From the NCBI GenBank assembly GCA_016788165.1, contig JAEUTH010000042.1, positions 124,001 to 188,000 on the forward strand: a stretch of DNA of 64,000 bases, read 5' to 3'. The notes under the pieces are model-generated. The model saw only the letters and a list, made by a program, of their open reading frames with translations, searched no databases and was not told the DNA's origin. Position 1 is the stretch's first letter, and each line of letters starts with the position of its first letter. The position numbers and the translations under genes were made by a program. Positions 48,448-56,541 of the stretch are shown here, piece by piece. The stretch comes from Bacteroidia bacterium (GTDB taxonomy: Bacteria; Bacteroidota; Bacteroidia; AKYH767-A; OLB10).

Positions 48448-51400
48448 ATGAAAAAATTGTGGTTAGTACTTGTATTTACTGCCATTTCTAACTTGCTGCT
48501 GGCTGACGGCTGGAGCCCGAAAAGCAACTTCCCTCTTAACAGAACTGGCGCTGTATCCTTTAGTATTGGCAACTATGGCTATGCCGGCTTGGGTTCTGAT
48601 GGTGTATTCTCATCAGCATTTTTTAGGTATAATCCAACTAACGACAACTGGGATCCCATGGCAACTTTCCCAATTACTCCGGTAGCCGGTGCCATTGGTT
48701 TTGCCAATAATACCTATGGTTTTGTTTTATCGGGAAGTACTTTATACCGCTACGACCCCATTGCAAATACCTGGACATTGATGACCGCTTTCCCTGGCCC
48801 CTATCGCGTAAATGGTTCACTGTTTACCATTGGCGATTTTGCCTACTTTGGTTTAGGCAGCCATAACGATGTTGATTTCTGGCAATACTCCATGCAAAAC
48901 AACACTTGGTCGAGCATTGCAACATTTCCGGGTACACCCCGTCAAAATGCTGTAGCATTAACCATTGGCTCATTTGGCTATGTGGGTACCGGATTTAACT
49001 CCATCTCTAACAGTTACTTTAATGATTTCTATCGTTATGATGCAGGTTCTGATACATGGCAAACCATGGCATCATTACCTTCTGTTGGTCGTATCGGTAT
49101 GGTAGCCTTTACACCACCCGGTAGCAATGCCGGTATTTTTGCTTTAGGTGGCCGTAACAATGGTGCAATCTTGTATCCCGAGGTTTATGAGTTTACACCG
49201 CCCTTTGGTTTCGGATCGGGTACTTGGGCTACCAAAAACAACTTTCCATTTGATAGCCGGATTTTTGCCAAAGCTATGGTAATACAAAACGAAGCATATA
49301 TGGGTACAGGTTCAAATGGAACTGCATTAAACACCTTTTACAAATATTTGCCTTGCGATTTGCCAACACAGCCAACAATAACCTTTTCAGGCCAACAAAT
49401 ATGTTCAGGTCAATCTACCACCTTACAAATAACCGGAGGCGATTTATATGATGCCACACAATGGGAATGGTATGAAAATACCTGCGGCTCAACACCAATA
49501 GGAGTTGGTACCAGTATTGTAGTTTCTCCCAATGCGCCCACAGCCTATTTTGCACGCGGTGTAGGTGGTTGCGTTATTAATGCGCCTTGTGGTACTACCA
49601 TTGTACCCGTAGTGCCATCACCAATAACTCCGGTAATAATCGGCAGCGGACCGGCACTACTATGCAATGGCCAACCCATTACCCTATCACACTTGCCACT
49701 AAGCACCGAACGTTTTGCCGACACCGTTTTTTCATTTAGTTCCGAATTTGGCACCGGTGCATGGTCGGCTAATCAGATATTAGGTCAACCCAATGTTTAC
49801 CCACAATATGGCGATTATCAAAATGCCTGGGCAACAGCAACAGCCGATAATCAGCGTGAGTTTATAGAGTTAGGTTTTGCCAACCCCGCACCCATTAACG
49901 GTGTAAGGATTTACGAAACTTTTAGTCCGGGTGCTGTTGATACCATATATATAATGAACCCCAATACCAACTTATGGGAAGTTGTATTTGCAACCACAGC
50001 ATCGCCAGCACAACCTAATGCCAACATACTCGAAGTTCAGTTTCCATTAACATCATTTCCTGTAGGTAAAATCAGAATTGCCATTAACTCGCCTGCGGTT
50101 TCTAACTTCAACGAGATTGATGCTGTATCAATCGGATATTACTTATTAAGCTCTGTATGGAATCCCGGTGGTATTGATGCAAATCAAATTAGCGTGTCAA
50201 ATTCGGGCAACTATACAGTAACTGTTACAAACTCGGCTGGCTGTTCAGCTACCAGCGCTCCTTTTGAAGTAACTGAAGACACCATTGCTCCATCATTAAC
50301 TTGTGCAAACGATACCACAATCTGTTTGCCTCCGGGTCAGCTTGAATTGTGTGGCGCTACATTTATTGCTTTACCATCAATTGCCATACCCAAAATGATT
50401 GACTACGTTGACAGGCATATAACCTACACCAATGTATCAATTAATGGCGGCAGCAATAGTGCAATAGTTGCACCAGGTTCAAACGTAAATCTTTCGTTTA
50501 ACATGAGTGTAGCTTTCGACTATCAAACAGGATATTGCCCTGGCTGCGTTGTGCAATCGTATATTGGCATTGGCGGTTCAAATATTACCGTTCAATGTTT
50601 CGGCAATATTTACGGTGGGTTTGCATCAAGCGCCAATGTTACCTTTACTGCACCTATTGCCCCCGGACTTTATTACCTTACCCAAGATGGTACTTTGGAT
50701 TATTTTTGCCAACCACGCAATTATGTAAATACCATAGCACAAGCCATAGCGGTAATCCGTGTAGGCTTTGGCGATGTGTTGCAAGTAACTGATAACTGTG
50801 GTGATGCTGAAATAACCAACGATGCACCCAACTGTTTGCAATTAGGTACTACAGCCATTACCTGGACAGCAACCGACTTAAGCGGCAATACAAGCTCATG
50901 TATTCAAAATGTAACATTGATAGCAGCACCTCAAGTAACAGTTACACCCGATACGGTACTTTGCAGTGGCAACTCCGTACAATTAACAGCAAATGGTGCT
51001 AATTTTTATTCCTGGTCATCGGCATCAAATTTATACTTTGCAACTACAGCAGCGGTAACGGTTTCGCCAACAACTTCAACAGCATATACCGTAACAACAA
51101 CCGATTTAAACGGATGCTCAAACGATGCTGTTGTAAACGTTTTTGTGCCCAATTTTTTACTTGACGATGCAAACATTTGTATTGGCGATAGTGTAGTACT
51201 TAACGAGTTTGGCGAATCAGCATCTACCACCTTTTTATGGAGTACCGGTGCCACAACGGCATCAATTACCGTAGCGCCAACAAGTAACACATCCTATACA
51301 GTAACTGTTACCGAATCGGGTTCGAGCTGTGGCGGATTAGTAGATTCGGCAACAGTATTTGTAAGCAGTGGTTTAAGCATTGGTTCGGTAAGTGTAACAG

Positions 51401-54400
51401 ATAACACCTGTTTTAATGGCACCGATGGTATTATTTCATTTAACGATTTTGTTGGCAATGGCGGTGGTGGCGCATTTGCAAGTACCTTTGGCCCCGGCTA
51501 CTTTGTAGTTTCTGCCGGCTACTATACTTTTAATGATTATGATGGTTATATTGATGATTTATTTGCAGGCACCTATCAAATCGTTTATCACGATGACGGA
51601 GGCTGCTCTTTCGATACCACAATAACCATTACCGAACCGCCACAATTAACACTTACACCAAATGCGCCTACTGTTTATGTTTGTCCGGGTGCATTGGCAT
51701 CGGTACAATTAACCGTAAATAACGGTGTAGCACCCTTTGTATTTTCCGGTGCCGATACGTTTAATTTACAACCCGGGTATTACGAATTTATTGTAACCGA
51801 TAACAGCGGATGTTCCGGAGGCTATGACATGGCTTATGCTTATGTTGATGTAATTGAAGTTGGCTTTAATGTTTTACCACAAATTACAGTAACGGGTTCA
51901 TTGGATATATGTGATGGCGATTCGGTTTTGCTTGAAGTAACACCTGCAACATTCGATTCCTATTTATGGAGTAATGGAACAACTACTTATAACAACTACG
52001 CAAAAACTGCCGGTGCCAATATAGTAACCGTTACAAATATTATTGGCTGTACTGAAACAGCAAGTGCCAATGTGGTTGTAAATAATTGTATTATTCCATA
52101 TTACCCACCACCAGACAGCGGCAAAATTGACGATTTAATTGGTGCTGAGTTAAATTCATTGTACGAAAACCCCGACTCAATACCTGACACAACTTTTAAT
52201 ACATCAAACAACAACATTTATGTAATTAATACCGATAGTGTACTTATTGAAGTTATACCGCAAGATGGTATGTACCATATTTTACGCGACACCTTATTGT
52301 TGCCAAGCTATGGTATGACTGAATTGGTAGATAATGGCGAAGATTCGTTGCGACTTATAACCGGTAAATTCCCAATTGCACATTTACGTAAACTCGATTC
52401 AATTCCGAATCTGGTAAACTATGCCCGCCCTTATTATCCGCCTGTAAATAGCCGTGCAACAGCAGTTGTGTTACCTGGTATTGCCTATAGCCAGGGCGAT
52501 GCAGCCATGCGCAGCGATACGGCACGTATGATTTTTGGTGTAGATGGCAGCAATGTTAAAGTAGGCGTTATTTCAAACAGTTATAACACACAAGCAAATA
52601 ATAAAGCAGGCGATGATGTGATAGCAGGCGACTTGCCCAGCAATGTAGAATTGTTGCTCGACTACCCTTATGGCCGTCAGACTGACGAGGGTCGTGCAAT
52701 GATGCAAATTGTGCATGATGTTGCTCCCGGTGCCCAATTAGCATTCAGAACCGGATATATAAGTGCCGGTGATTTTGCCGAAGGCATCAAAGAACTACAA
52801 CAAGCTAATTGCGATGTAATTGTAGATGACATTTCGTATATCACCGAACCGTTTTTTCAAGACGGTGTAATTAGCCATGCAGTAAATGCAGTACGCGATA
52901 GCGGTGTGGTATATATTGCTGCTGCCGGTAATTATGGAAGCCGTTCTTATGGTTCTACATTTAACCCTGTAACTGCACCATCAGGTTTTGCAGGCCATGC
53001 CCATGACTTTGGTGGTGGCGATGTTTACCAACGTGTAAATTTGCCTCATGGCACATACACCATTGTTTTGCAATGGGAAGACTCTATTTACTCGCGTGGG
53101 CAATTGCCGGGCGTTGCCAATGATTTAGACATCTATTTACTAGACACTACCGGCAACATTATTTTCGGGTTTAACCGCAACAATATTTATGGCGATCCGC
53201 TCGAAGTAATGCCATTTATTGTAAAAGGAAATATAACTGCCGATCTATTAATTACACGTGCGCAAGGCAACCAAAATGTACGATTTAAATACATTGTATT
53301 TAGAGGCGAAATGGATATTACCGAGCACAACAACGAATCGGGCACTGTAGTTGGTCAATCAAATGCACAAGGCGCTATAACTGTTGGAGCCGTGTTATAT
53401 ACAAATACACCTGCTTATGGTGTTAGTCAACCAACGGTAGCCTCCTTCTCATCTCGAGGTGGTAATATTTTAAGTGGCGAAAGCACTGCACGTTTTAAAC
53501 CAAATATATGTGCGCCTAATGGTGTAAACACAACAGTAAAAATGGGCGGTGTAAATATTGATGGCGATGCCTTACCAAACTTTTTTGGCACATCGGCAGC
53601 AGCACCACATATAGCAGGTGTTGCAGCACTTGTAATAGACGCTCAAAATCGTTTTAATCAAAACACCATCAGCCCTGATAGTGTAAGAGATTTAATTTCG
53701 CAAACGGCTCTTGATATGTATGGCAGTGGATATGACATTAATAGCGGTTATGGATTTGTAAGAACCGATTCATTGTTAGCACGCTTTTCAAGCCCCAAAC
53801 CTGTATTATATAGTTTAGCGGTTGATACAACTGTACAAAGTATTACAGGCAGTACACAACCTGAATTTAAAGGCGCTTATTTTAATGAACATACCAAAAT
53901 TATTATGCGCGATGACACATTACCTACACAAGTTATAGATGCAAATACCATTATTGCCGAAGCACCTGCATTCGAAGGCAATCCGCCATTTTTTGCATAC
54001 AATCCGCCTACTACCCCATCAGGTTTAGACGGTGGTAATAGTGATAGTTTGTACTTCTTTAGTCCGGTTAAAAAACAAATTGTTGTACGCCCAAATGATG
54101 TGGTTAAGTATTATGGCGAAGATTTACCGTTGTTAAGTTTTAGTGTAACGGTTGATGGCCAACCATTAGATTCGACACAACTTACATTAAATGATTTAAA
54201 TTTAACCAATGTACTATTAAGTACATCTGTACAAGCGTTTACCAACCCGGGCTTATACCCAGTTACAGCTACAAATAGTCCTTTGTCTGCATCGCCTGTT
54301 AGCCAGGTGGTATTAGACGAGTTGTATAAATTTACATATCAACCGGGGGTGTTTACAGTGGCGCGTATGCCTTTAATTGTTAAGGCTAAAGATACCACCA

Positions 54401-56541
54401 TTGTTTATGGTGATAAAATTGGTGCTTTGGCTTTTGATTATATTTATGATAACACCAACGTAAGCTACGCTAACCGGCCAGCATTGTATGATAGCATTCA
54501 GCTTTCGCATGAAGAAATACTTGCCGAAAATGTTGTGGGTTATGTAAATGCAAAAGCCATTGTAAATGGTCGTGCTATAGTAAATGCCGACCTGGCAAAT
54601 TTGGGTATGTTAGCAAGTGGCAAAGCAATTGTTAATGCACGAGCAATTGTAAATGCGAAAGCAATTGTAAATGGCGCACAACAAGACGACACAACATTTG
54701 TAGTAGATGTGGCACCTGAATCATTCTTTTATTATCAGGACGATCCCGATACAGTGCCATTAGTAAGTGCCAAAGCCATTGTTAATGCGCGTGCCATTGT
54801 AAATGCAAAAGCTATTGTTAACGGCAAAGCGATAGTTAACGGAAAAGCAATTGTAAATGCCAAAGCAATCGTAAATGGTAAAGCCATCGTAAATGCATCA
54901 ACTACCAATGATGATAGTAATGAAAATGTAGTTTCAATAATTGATAGTTTGGATGTTGATACAACCAGCACTGACTCGGTTTATTTTAACTCCATTAACT
55001 TAATTACCGGTTTAACAGCCGGTGAGCAAATGATTGTCCCCGGTGCGTTTTTCAGCGAAAATTTTGACATAAGCTATGAATTAGGAGCTTTAACTATTTT
55101 ACCCGATACGCTAACTATCACAACAAATGATACAAATAGTGTGTGCGGTGTTTTGCCACCATTTACCGCTACAACTTCGGGCTATCATTATGATGATGCT
55201 GATAGTACTGTTTTGGTTAGCCCACCCACATTTAGTATAACAGATGTAAATAACAACCCTGTTGTAATACTACCCATACCTGCAGGTAATTACCAAATTG
55301 TACCGCAAGCTACCCTTGCAGGTCATCCCGATTCGGTTAACTACGTTTTAAATTTAATTAATGGTGCATTAACCGTTAACAGCGATATTGAAATAACAGG
55401 TAATACAACCGGAAGTTGTGCCGGAGCAAACGGTGGTTCAATTACAATTAATGTAACGGGAGGCGAACCAGCTTATTCATACAATTGGAGCAATGGCTCA
55501 ACTACCAAAAACATAAGCAATTTAGCATCCGGAACCTATACAGTAACTGTAACTGATAATTTAGGCTGTACTGCTTTACAAACATTTACACTACAAAATC
55601 AACCTTTACCTGTTATTGGCATTTCAGGCATGGCAGTAATTTGTAGCGGTCTATCAACCAAGGTTAGTGCAGCTCCGGGTTACAGCTCATACTTATGGAG
55701 TAATGGTGTTACCAGCCGCCACATGCGTACCACTATATATGGTGTATATACGGTTACAGTTACCAATACACAAGGTTGTACAGGTACCGGTAGCGTAAAA
55801 ATAATACGCAAGTCAAACCCAACTCCGGCTTTAGCTACTTCGGCCACCTTATGCTATAATGACTCGGTAACGCTAGATGCAGGAGCTAACTTTAGCAGTT
55901 ACTTATGGTCAACAGGCAGTACGTTACAAGCAACGCAAGTAAACATTGCCAGCACCTATACGGTAACCGTTACATCATCTTTTGGCTGCTCAGCTTCGGC
56001 CAGCACAATAGTAACGGCTAATCCCCGAATACAACTCAGACGCAAAGTTATAAACGAATCAACCCCGGGTGCAAACGATGGAGAGGCATGGGTAAATGTA
56101 TATAGCGGTACCCCACCTTACAGTTATTACTGGCAATTTAATGGCGATACTACGAACCGTATTAGCGGATTACGAGCTAAAACCTATAGAGTAACCGTTA
56201 CCGATGCCAATGGTTGCACTAAAACCTGTAAATTACATGTAGGCACAGGTTCTACTATAGCCAAACATTTATTCGAAGAAGGCGATATAGCCATGACAGC
56301 TAATGCTATGCCCAACCCAACAAAAGGAAATATATCAGTAAGTGTAAACGAACTTTACAATGATGCAACCGTTTTGGTTTACGATATGTTGGGCAATGAA
56401 CTACAAAAACATGCTTTAACTGCTGATGATGGCGAAACCGTAAGTATTACTTTACCTTTTGCCGAGTTAAAGGCCGGCTTATATATGGTTGTTATAACAG
56501 ATGGCCAACAAAGATCCGTTTTACGTATTGTGCGTGATTAG
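48448..56541 (+). CDS. Giant T9SS-exported S8/S53-like protease with Kelch, MBG, KAIVN repeats and SprB modules
   Basis: A 2697-residue protein with a signal peptide (MKKLWLVLVFTAISNLLLA). Order of domains: Kelch-type propeller (about 20-310), Ig-like and discoidin-like segments (310-570), HYR and Ig-like units (600-1210), an S8/S53-like protease domain (about 1360-1790), MBG beta-grasp units (about 1880-2320), SprB repeats (2325-2615) and a type A T9SS sorting domain (MPNPTKGNISVSV to the end). The protease shows the serine in FFGTSAAAPH (Ser1716), Glu1414 in TDEGRAM and SAAGN-like AAAGNYG. Where the Asp is usual (VGVISDS in relatives) it has Asn1377. The KAIVN hexapeptide repeats lie in an MBG unit. 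Confidence 0.93.
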   Translation: MKKLWLVLVFTAISNLLLADGWSPKSNFPLNRTGAVSFSIGNYGYAGLGSDGVFSSAFFRYNPTNDNWDPMATFPITPVAGAIGFANNTYGFVLSGSTLYRYDPIANTWTLMTAFPGPYRVNGSLFTIGDFAYFGLGSHNDVDFWQYSMQNNTWSSIATFPGTPRQNAVALTIGSFGYVGTGFNSISNSYFNDFYRYDAGSDTWQTMASLPSVGRIGMVAFTPPGSNAGIFALGGRNNGAILYPEVYEFTPPFGFGSGTWATKNNFPFDSRIFAKAMVIQNEAYMGTGSNGTALNTFYKYLPCDLPTQPTITFSGQQICSGQSTTLQITGGDLYDATQWEWYENTCGSTPIGVGTSIVVSPNAPTAYFARGVGGCVINAPCGTTIVPVVPSPITPVIIGSGPALLCNGQPITLSHLPLSTERFADTVFSFSSEFGTGAWSANQILGQPNVYPQYGDYQNAWATATADNQREFIELGFANPAPINGVRIYETFSPGAVDTIYIMNPNTNLWEVVFATTASPAQPNANILEVQFPLTSFPVGKIRIAINSPAVSNFNEIDAVSIGYYLLSSVWNPGGIDANQISVSNSGNYTVTVTNSAGCSATSAPFEVTEDTIAPSLTCANDTTICLPPGQLELCGATFIALPSIAIPKMIDYVDRHITYTNVSINGGSNSAIVAPGSNVNLSFNMSVAFDYQTGYCPGCVVQSYIGIGGSNITVQCFGNIYGGFASSANVTFTAPIAPGLYYLTQDGTLDYFCQPRNYVNTIAQAIAVIRVGFGDVLQVTDNCGDAEITNDAPNCLQLGTTAITWTATDLSGNTSSCIQNVTLIAAPQVTVTPDTVLCSGNSVQLTANGANFYSWSSASNLYFATTAAVTVSPTTSTAYTVTTTDLNGCSNDAVVNVFVPNFLLDDANICIGDSVVLNEFGESASTTFLWSTGATTASITVAPTSNTSYTVTVTESGSSCGGLVDSATVFVSSGLSIGSVSVTDNTCFNGTDGIISFNDFVGNGGGGAFASTFGPGYFVVSAGYYTFNDYDGYIDDLFAGTYQIVYHDDGGCSFDTTITITEPPQLTLTPNAPTVYVCPGALASVQLTVNNGVAPFVFSGADTFNLQPGYYEFIVTDNSGCSGGYDMAYAYVDVIEVGFNVLPQITVTGSLDICDGDSVLLEVTPATFDSYLWSNGTTTYNNYAKTAGANIVTVTNIIGCTETASANVVVNNCIIPYYPPPDSGKIDDLIGAELNSLYENPDSIPDTTFNTSNNNIYVINTDSVLIEVIPQDGMYHILRDTLLLPSYGMTELVDNGEDSLRLITGKFPIAHLRKLDSIPNLVNYARPYYPPVNSRATAVVLPGIAYSQGDAAMRSDTARMIFGVDGSNVKVGVISNSYNTQANNKAGDDVIAGDLPSNVELLLDYPYGRQTDEGRAMMQIVHDVAPGAQLAFRTGYISAGDFAEGIKELQQANCDVIVDDISYITEPFFQDGVISHAVNAVRDSGVVYIAAAGNYGSRSYGSTFNPVTAPSGFAGHAHDFGGGDVYQRVNLPHGTYTIVLQWEDSIYSRGQLPGVANDLDIYLLDTTGNIIFGFNRNNIYGDPLEVMPFIVKGNITADLLITRAQGNQNVRFKYIVFRGEMDITEHNNESGTVVGQSNAQGAITVGAVLYTNTPAYGVSQPTVASFSSRGGNILSGESTARFKPNICAPNGVNTTVKMGGVNIDGDALPNFFGTSAAAPHIAGVAALVIDAQNRFNQNTISPDSVRDLISQTALDMYGSGYDINSGYGFVRTDSLLARFSSPKPVLYSLAVDTTVQSITGSTQPEFKGAYFNEHTKIIMRDDTLPTQVIDANTIIAEAPAFEGNPPFFAYNPPTTPSGLDGGNSDSLYFFSPVKKQIVVRPNDVVKYYGEDLPLLSFSVTVDGQPLDSTQLTLNDLNLTNVLLSTSVQAFTNPGLYPVTATNSPLSASPVSQVVLDELYKFTYQPGVFTVARMPLIVKAKDTTIVYGDKIGALAFDYIYDNTNVSYANRPALYDSIQLSHEEILAENVVGYVNAKAIVNGRAIVNADLANLGMLASGKAIVNARAIVNAKAIVNGAQQDDTTFVVDVAPESFFYYQDDPDTVPLVSAKAIVNARAIVNAKAIVNGKAIVNGKAIVNAKAIVNGKAIVNASTTNDDSNENVVSIIDSLDVDTTSTDSVYFNSINLITGLTAGEQMIVPGAFFSENFDISYELGALTILPDTLTITTNDTNSVCGVLPPFTATTSGYHYDDADSTVLVSPPTFSITDVNNNPVVILPIPAGNYQIVPQATLAGHPDSVNYVLNLINGALTVNSDIEITGNTTGSCAGANGGSITINVTGGEPAYSYNWSNGSTTKNISNLASGTYTVTVTDNLGCTALQTFTLQNQPLPVIGISGMAVICSGLSTKVSAAPGYSSYLWSNGVTSRHMRTTIYGVYTVTVTNTQGCTGTGSVKIIRKSNPTPALATSATLCYNDSVTLDAGANFSSYLWSTGSTLQATQVNIASTYTVTVTSSFGCSASASTIVTANPRIQLRRKVINESTPGANDGEAWVNVYSGTPPYSYYWQFNGDTTNRISGLRAKTYRVTVTDANGCTKTCKLHVGTGSTIAKHLFEEGDIAMTANAMPNPTKGNISVSVNELYNDATVLVYDMLGNELQKHALTADDGETVSITLPFAELKAGLYMVVITDGQQRSVLRIVRD
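54550..54672 (+). repeat. KAIVN hexapeptide repeats, block 1 (five copies)
   Basis: Two copies at 54550-54585 and three at 54619-54672 of an 18-bp unit encoding [AG][KR]AIVN, split by an 11-residue insert (ADLANLGMLAS). Codons vary between copies (e.g. GCC/GCT/GCA for Ala, ATT/ATA for Ile). Residues about 2035-2075. Confidence 0.95.
54769..54894 (+). repeat. KAIVN hexapeptide repeats, block 2 (seven uninterrupted copies)
   Basis: Seven tandem 18-bp units encode AKAIVN, ARAIVN, AKAIVN, GKAIVN, GKAIVN, AKAIVN, GKAIVN (residues 2108-2149). Protein units are nearly identical while their third codon positions differ at most sites. Confidence 0.97.

Follow-up and report, generated by a model that had tools for sequence, protein, structure and literature searches.

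A hexapeptide array in a giant exported protease of Bacteroidota and a candidate receptor cyclase encoded beside its relatives

The DNA considered here, referred to as the window, is a 64,000 nucleotide stretch of contig JAEUTH010000042.1 from a Bacteroidia bacterium. An open reading frame on the forward strand (positions 48448–56541; all features below share this strand) encodes a 2,697 amino acid S8 protease with a type IX secretion tail. Within it, and in the same frame, lie 12 units of the hexapeptide [AG][KR]AIVN (54550–54894). Pfam and NCBIfam matches divide the protein into a Kelch/Ig-like N-terminal part, the S8 protease, MBG-like domains with the hexapeptide insert, SprB repeats and the C-terminal tail. 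The Peptidase_S8 match covers residues 1594–1768 (53227–53751; Pfam E 2.4e-19) and its serine motif, GTSAAAPH, is kept in the window copy and in relatives. At a second presumed catalytic motif, the 20 distinct relatives matched all have [ILM]SDSY and the window has VISNSY (within VKVGVISNSYN). The presumed catalytic aspartate is therefore an asparagine here, and the window protease may be inactive or altered. The Por_Secre_tail sorting domain (residues 2622–2692; 56311–56523) identifies the protein as type IX cargo (PF18962, E 3.8e-11; TIGR04183, 34.0 bits with a cut-off of 23).

The 12 units are arranged 2+3+7. Block 1a (AKAIVN GRAIVN; 54550–54585) is followed by an 11 amino acid spacer, ADLANLGMLAS (54586–54618), the length of which is conserved in most relatives. 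Block 1b (GKAIVN ARAIVN AKAIVN; 54619–54672), a 32 amino acid spacer (54673–54768) and the seven units of block 2 (54769–54894) complete the array. An earlier, sequence-only reading of this DNA had described blocks of five and seven copies; the counts are right but the five are split. A pattern of two adjacent units occurs nine times in the genome, always within this array, and control patterns gave no hits. Thus, the array is not a chance occurrence. It sits in an insert of ~150 amino acids that interrupts an MBG-like domain (54352–55110; alignment A1, 16 relatives). The earlier assignment of the region to an MBG domain holds to this extent, but the better of the two MBG_2 (PF18676) stretches counted by Pfam is the next unit downstream (residues 2222–2309; 55111–55374). 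Ordinary MBG units in genomes of family f2 lack the insert. As the sequence-only reading supposed, no named domain covers the insert: there was no match to it in Pfam, NCBIfam or PDB sequences. Viral contigs contained no match.

Some 55 relatives carry the insert. In most, the block architecture is the same, and the spacers and the C-terminal MBG part are conserved. The domain model built from alignment A1 matched 23 of 42 genomes of the order, further families of the class and a few family f2 genomes. The same repeats turned up in named Bacteroidetes records when genome contigs were scanned for the pattern. Hence, the repeats belong to many related genomes and not to one assembly alone. Arrays of this family have 6–13 units, and some of the relatives' open frames exceed 5,000 codons. 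The unit, which we refer to as a dialect, differs between genes. Hexapeptide dialects include GRAIVN, ARALVN, GKSIVN, AKVVTN, PRVVTN, GRILSN, GRVVTS, QRVIAS, QRAVVS, AHAIVN, GKGLVN, GKRSVN and GIPLVN. There are also units of seven (GSRGIAN, RGTALVN) and eight residues (G[RK]AVTIVN, GKSIVISN). Nearly all dialects have a basic residue at position 2. The repeats are thus a family without a name, uniform within a protein and varying between genomes. Three family f2 genomes have octapeptide arrays, NG[RKQ]AV[TSP]IV, in the same domain (L135, L136, L137, L169–L171), with more variation from unit to unit. Weaker family f2 matches (E about 1e-4) were ordinary MBG units without repeats. Single two-unit matches in Gammaproteobacteria, Deltaproteobacteria, Ardenticatenaceae, Massilia and Lysobacter never reached three units in one frame and look like chance. 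In other proteins, dialect words occurred only as scattered single matches, near the control level.

The units differ far more as DNA than as protein. In the window, differences between units are mostly synonymous, together with genuine A/G and K/R variation. Across 38 genes, units of the same gene are 90% identical as protein, and codons for identical residues agree in 45–47% of cases, against an expectation of 38% based on the codon usage of the gene itself. Pooled nonsynonymous (dN) and synonymous (dS) divergence between units of a gene was 0.11 and 1.8, respectively. Between close orthologues, dN in the repeats is 0 at dS values of 0.06–2. These values bear out the proposal that the copies form an old pattern held by selection on the protein. 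Some units have been copied: Arg codon boxes are over-dispersed (p=0.009). At L084:1101–1862, non-contiguous QRAIAS units share near-identical 18 nucleotide DNA, indicating recent short-tract copying that skipped the units in between.

The dialect of a gene tends to go with its genome and not with its place in the gene tree. In a tree of the protease part alone, two separate gene lineages share one dialect within each of six genomes (G430, G431, G412, G398, G434 and G422). Pairs from one genome were still more alike in the repeat after regression on the remaining domain (permutation p=0.006). In G398, G434, G412 and G399, other domain parts and codons are near background and so conversion is not the explanation. 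Even without a receptor, coordinated evolution of this kind is unusual: the repeat is uniform as protein within a gene and tends to be shared by the paralogues of a genome, and its synonymous codons are close to random.

Clustering of flanking genes returned one recurrent adjacent partner. This protein has a signal-like N-terminus, a tetratricopeptide repeat (TPR) domain, one transmembrane stretch visible in the sequence and a class III nucleotidyl cyclase (Guanylate_cyc) catalytic domain. We refer to it as the TPR-cyclase. In 19 loci, one of them in a Lentimicrobiaceae record (L026), its gene directly follows that of the repeat protein on the same strand. In additional loci, among them members of families f83, f62, f68 and f6, it lies within ~6 kb on the same strand. 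Within the order, a close full-length TPR-cyclase is present in 18 of 23 repeat-positive genomes and in 1 of 19 repeat-negative genomes (Fisher p=1.5e-6). In the single repeat-negative case (G406), the cyclase gene immediately follows, at the end of a contig, a gene for a type IX protein that is truncated. In other families, all 14 repeat-positive genomes have the TPR-cyclase, in most cases no more than a few kb from the repeat gene, with contig and strand shared. Conversely, none of five genomes without the repeat has a TPR-cyclase at E 1e-60, and the repeat domain was absent from all 20 loci of more distant TPR-cyclases. A 1,141 amino acid repeat protein beside one distant cyclase (L286) was unrelated by inspection. 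At L285 (G428:C17:1000–20500; family f60) there are four tandem TPR-cyclase genes, and a related genome, G421, has eight matches. Genes for a histidine kinase that binds cyclic nucleotide monophosphates (a hybrid kinase in L199) and for an HD-domain protein recur near the pair (L198, L199, L203 and L225). Both are candidates for the output of the cyclase.

The sequence of the unit also co-varies with the TPR ectodomain. In a partial Mantel test controlling for the cyclase domain, dialect distance correlated with TPR distance (r=0.37, p=0.001, n=22). With the protease and three other MBG parts also controlled, the correlation was r=0.27 (p=0.018, n=17). Under the same controls, the spacers, including counterparts of the 32 amino acid spacer of the window, co-varied with the TPR ectodomain (r=0.35, p=0.002, n=17). 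There was no significant correlation between the repeat and the protease, the repeat and the cyclase domain, or the N-terminal MBG part and the TPR ectodomain. Numbers of receptors and dialects often agree. Two close receptors accompany two dialects in G425 and G395, and probably in G640. One receptor accompanies one dialect in G398, G412, G430, G431 and G422 and, allowing for a one-residue difference within each genome, in G399 and G432. Linked receptors, but not unlinked TPR-cyclases, conserve residues Asn135, Glu223 and Asp290 (G399 numbering). We considered whether acidic residues track the basic residue of the unit. Linked receptors retain E223 and D290, and the octapeptide group has lost both. 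However, the link is not clean, because G178, with the unit GIPLVN and no basic residue, keeps acidic residues.

Structure models were made for both partners. AlphaFold2 returned a fair MBG core for the repeat domain, with predicted local distance difference test (pLDDT) values of 25–32 over the repeats; the alignment was shallow and disorder is thereby not proven. A fold search with this poor model gave only noise. The TPR ectodomain was modelled at a pLDDT of 85. Its nearest solved structures are LGN/Pins TPR domains with extended peptides, followed by the Rap and NprR peptide receptors.

These observations suggest that a giant exported protease carries the hexapeptide array as a short peptide ligand in many copies, and that a receptor cyclase reads it through its periplasmic TPR ectodomain. 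Reasoning from sequences and gene order, we put the probability of this reading at about 60%. Its observed basis is the conserved insert, protein uniformity within genes with near-random synonymous codons, the tendency of paralogues in a genome to match in dialect, one TPR-cyclase subfamily that both adjoins and co-occurs with the repeat, and co-variation of the insert with the TPR part. The sequence-only reading had proposed a ligand- or surface-binding strip; the direction was right, but the evidence makes the array more likely a ligand than a binder. Mechanistically, the protease would present the array as a multivalent ligand and the TPR ectodomain of the single-pass cyclase would bind units in extended form. 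Contact could occur during periplasmic transit, at the surface or after proteolytic release. Class III cyclases act as dimers, and many copies might let one array engage or dimerise several of them. The cyclic nucleotide made would then act on the histidine kinase encoded nearby. A broader proposal falls a little short of even odds in our estimation. Here, the pairs would form an undescribed Bacteroidota peptide-sensing system in which genome-specific arrays are self signals for periplasmic-TPR receptor cyclases, giving a lineage-specific 'language' coupled to cyclic nucleotides. If true, Bacteroidota would have a peptide-sensing pathway with a readable code, in which ligand and receptor are neighbours and a six-letter word is repeated. 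The natural dialects would be ready-made specificity tests, and type IX export would be linked to cyclic-nucleotide signalling.

Several points weigh against the ligand reading. The window genome, which is 99.8% complete, has no close TPR-cyclase (best E 3.4e-105), and so the pairing holds for the window copy by relationship only. In the protease tree this gene groups with those of G404, G399 and G477. Its intact array may be an orphan or may act on a receptor that has diverged, and a diverged TPR-cyclase is encoded at G000:C9:37450; the window is perhaps the ligand side of the system in a lineage with a changed or lost receptor. G400 has two dialects but one full receptor and a 281 amino acid remnant of another TPR-cyclase, which flanks the repeat-bearing gene on its opposite side (L256:1838–2680; G400:C94). 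The Mantel samples are small (17–22) and phylogeny is controlled only in part. Common dialects can match between paralogues by chance. Paralogues of G431 are alike over the whole domain, and those of G430 partly, and the match within genomes is therefore due in part to conversion of the domain. Choice of A or G by unit position is conserved in some lineages and looks structural. Finally, TPR folds match many TPR proteins and the fold therefore shows no function.

The last but one of these points is also what a structural repeat would predict. A beta-solenoid or meander could be built from the units as strands or turns, with stacking demanding uniformity and paralogues matching through domain recombination. 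Alternation of small and hydrophobic residues fits such a role, as do the A/G choices kept at given positions in relatives and the whole-domain similarity of paralogues in G431 and, in part, G430. The sequence-only reading had likewise proposed a repetitive beta structure that turns at Asn-Gly. Neither part fared well. Given the pLDDT values over the repeats, a beta-solenoid is unsupported; whole arrays of 7-mers or 8-mers exist, and so unit length varies; the turn is not conserved, with N-A, N-P, S-Q and S-G found in relatives. Dialect sharing in G398, G434, G412 and G399 goes with background domain similarity and random codon identity, and linkage to the TPR-cyclase, with its co-variation, is left unexplained. 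We therefore regard a purely structural role as rather unlikely. Slippage or conversion of DNA in recent times, without function, is refuted as a full explanation and we give it almost no weight. The codon excess (0.45–0.47 against 0.38), the Arg boxes and the 18-mers of L084 do show occasional copying, a likely means by which arrays are renewed. However, the lack of amino acid change between orthologous repeats and an architecture conserved across families do not fit with an array that has no function.

Two further alternatives are specific versions of the ligand reading itself and, as such, their likelihoods overlap with that given above. The array might be a precursor, cut by this or another protease into free hexapeptides that diffuse between cells to the TPR-cyclase. 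Many genome-specific copies beside a presumed receptor recall the propeptides of RRNPPA systems (PMC11343458), and the basic residue at position 2 resembles the Arg of Phr peptides (PMC3601992). Conversely, the units are contiguous with no clear processing sites, and A/G and K/R variants in one protein would yield mixed peptides. Units that depart from the dialect are kept at fixed positions, which suggests an array acting intact. We regard release of free peptides as a somewhat unlikely form of the proposal. The TPR-cyclase might instead bind the array of passing cargo and report type IX export or its backlog, rather than other cells. A protein with a type IX tail must cross the periplasm, where the TPR ectodomain is predicted to be; however, sensing of export does not alone explain why dialects diverge between genomes. 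We consider this version similarly doubtful.

The ligand reading resembles a known class of system in several respects. RRNPPA pheromones of 5–10 amino acids are encoded beside their receptor, are sometimes repeated 1–4 times and have receptor-specific variants (PMC11343458). In Phr peptides, a conserved Arg at residue 2 pairs with an Asp of the TPR domain (PMC3601992). As with Rap-Phr and NprR-NprX of Bacillota, a short repeated exported peptide is encoded beside a TPR receptor, the basic residue occupies the same position and Rap-pheromone complexes are among the structures to which the TPR model aligns. The resemblance to Rap-Phr signalling would be functional. In RRNPPA systems the propeptide is small (50–120 amino acids) and the receptor is a cytoplasmic TPR protein with a helix-turn-helix domain or Rap effector helices. 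Here, an array of 6–13 units is part of a giant type IX protein, of 2,697 amino acids in the window, and the receptor, in the phylum Bacteroidota, is a class III cyclase in the membrane, its TPR domain predicted to lie outside the cytoplasm. As these two defining features differ, we do not file the system under RRNPPA. A third feature, the peptide gene adjoining the receptor gene, is present at the 19 relative loci and absent from the window. In the open-access literature, our coverage of which was incomplete, we found no paper describing a TPR cyclase paired with a protein of this kind. LGN/Pins TPR domains, which bind long extended peptides (of NuMA, Inscuteable, FRMPD and afadin), are closest to the ectodomain among natural structures and sequences. 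Unlike the TPR-cyclase, LGN/Pins is a eukaryotic cytoplasmic scaffold with no cyclase and no repeated hexapeptide ligand. Although left-handed beta-helix proteins differ from this family, where arrays also have 7- and 8-residue units and AlphaFold2 predicted no confident solenoid, they share the six-residue period, and NCBIfam scores to PaaY and YdcK were very weak, lying well under the cut-off.
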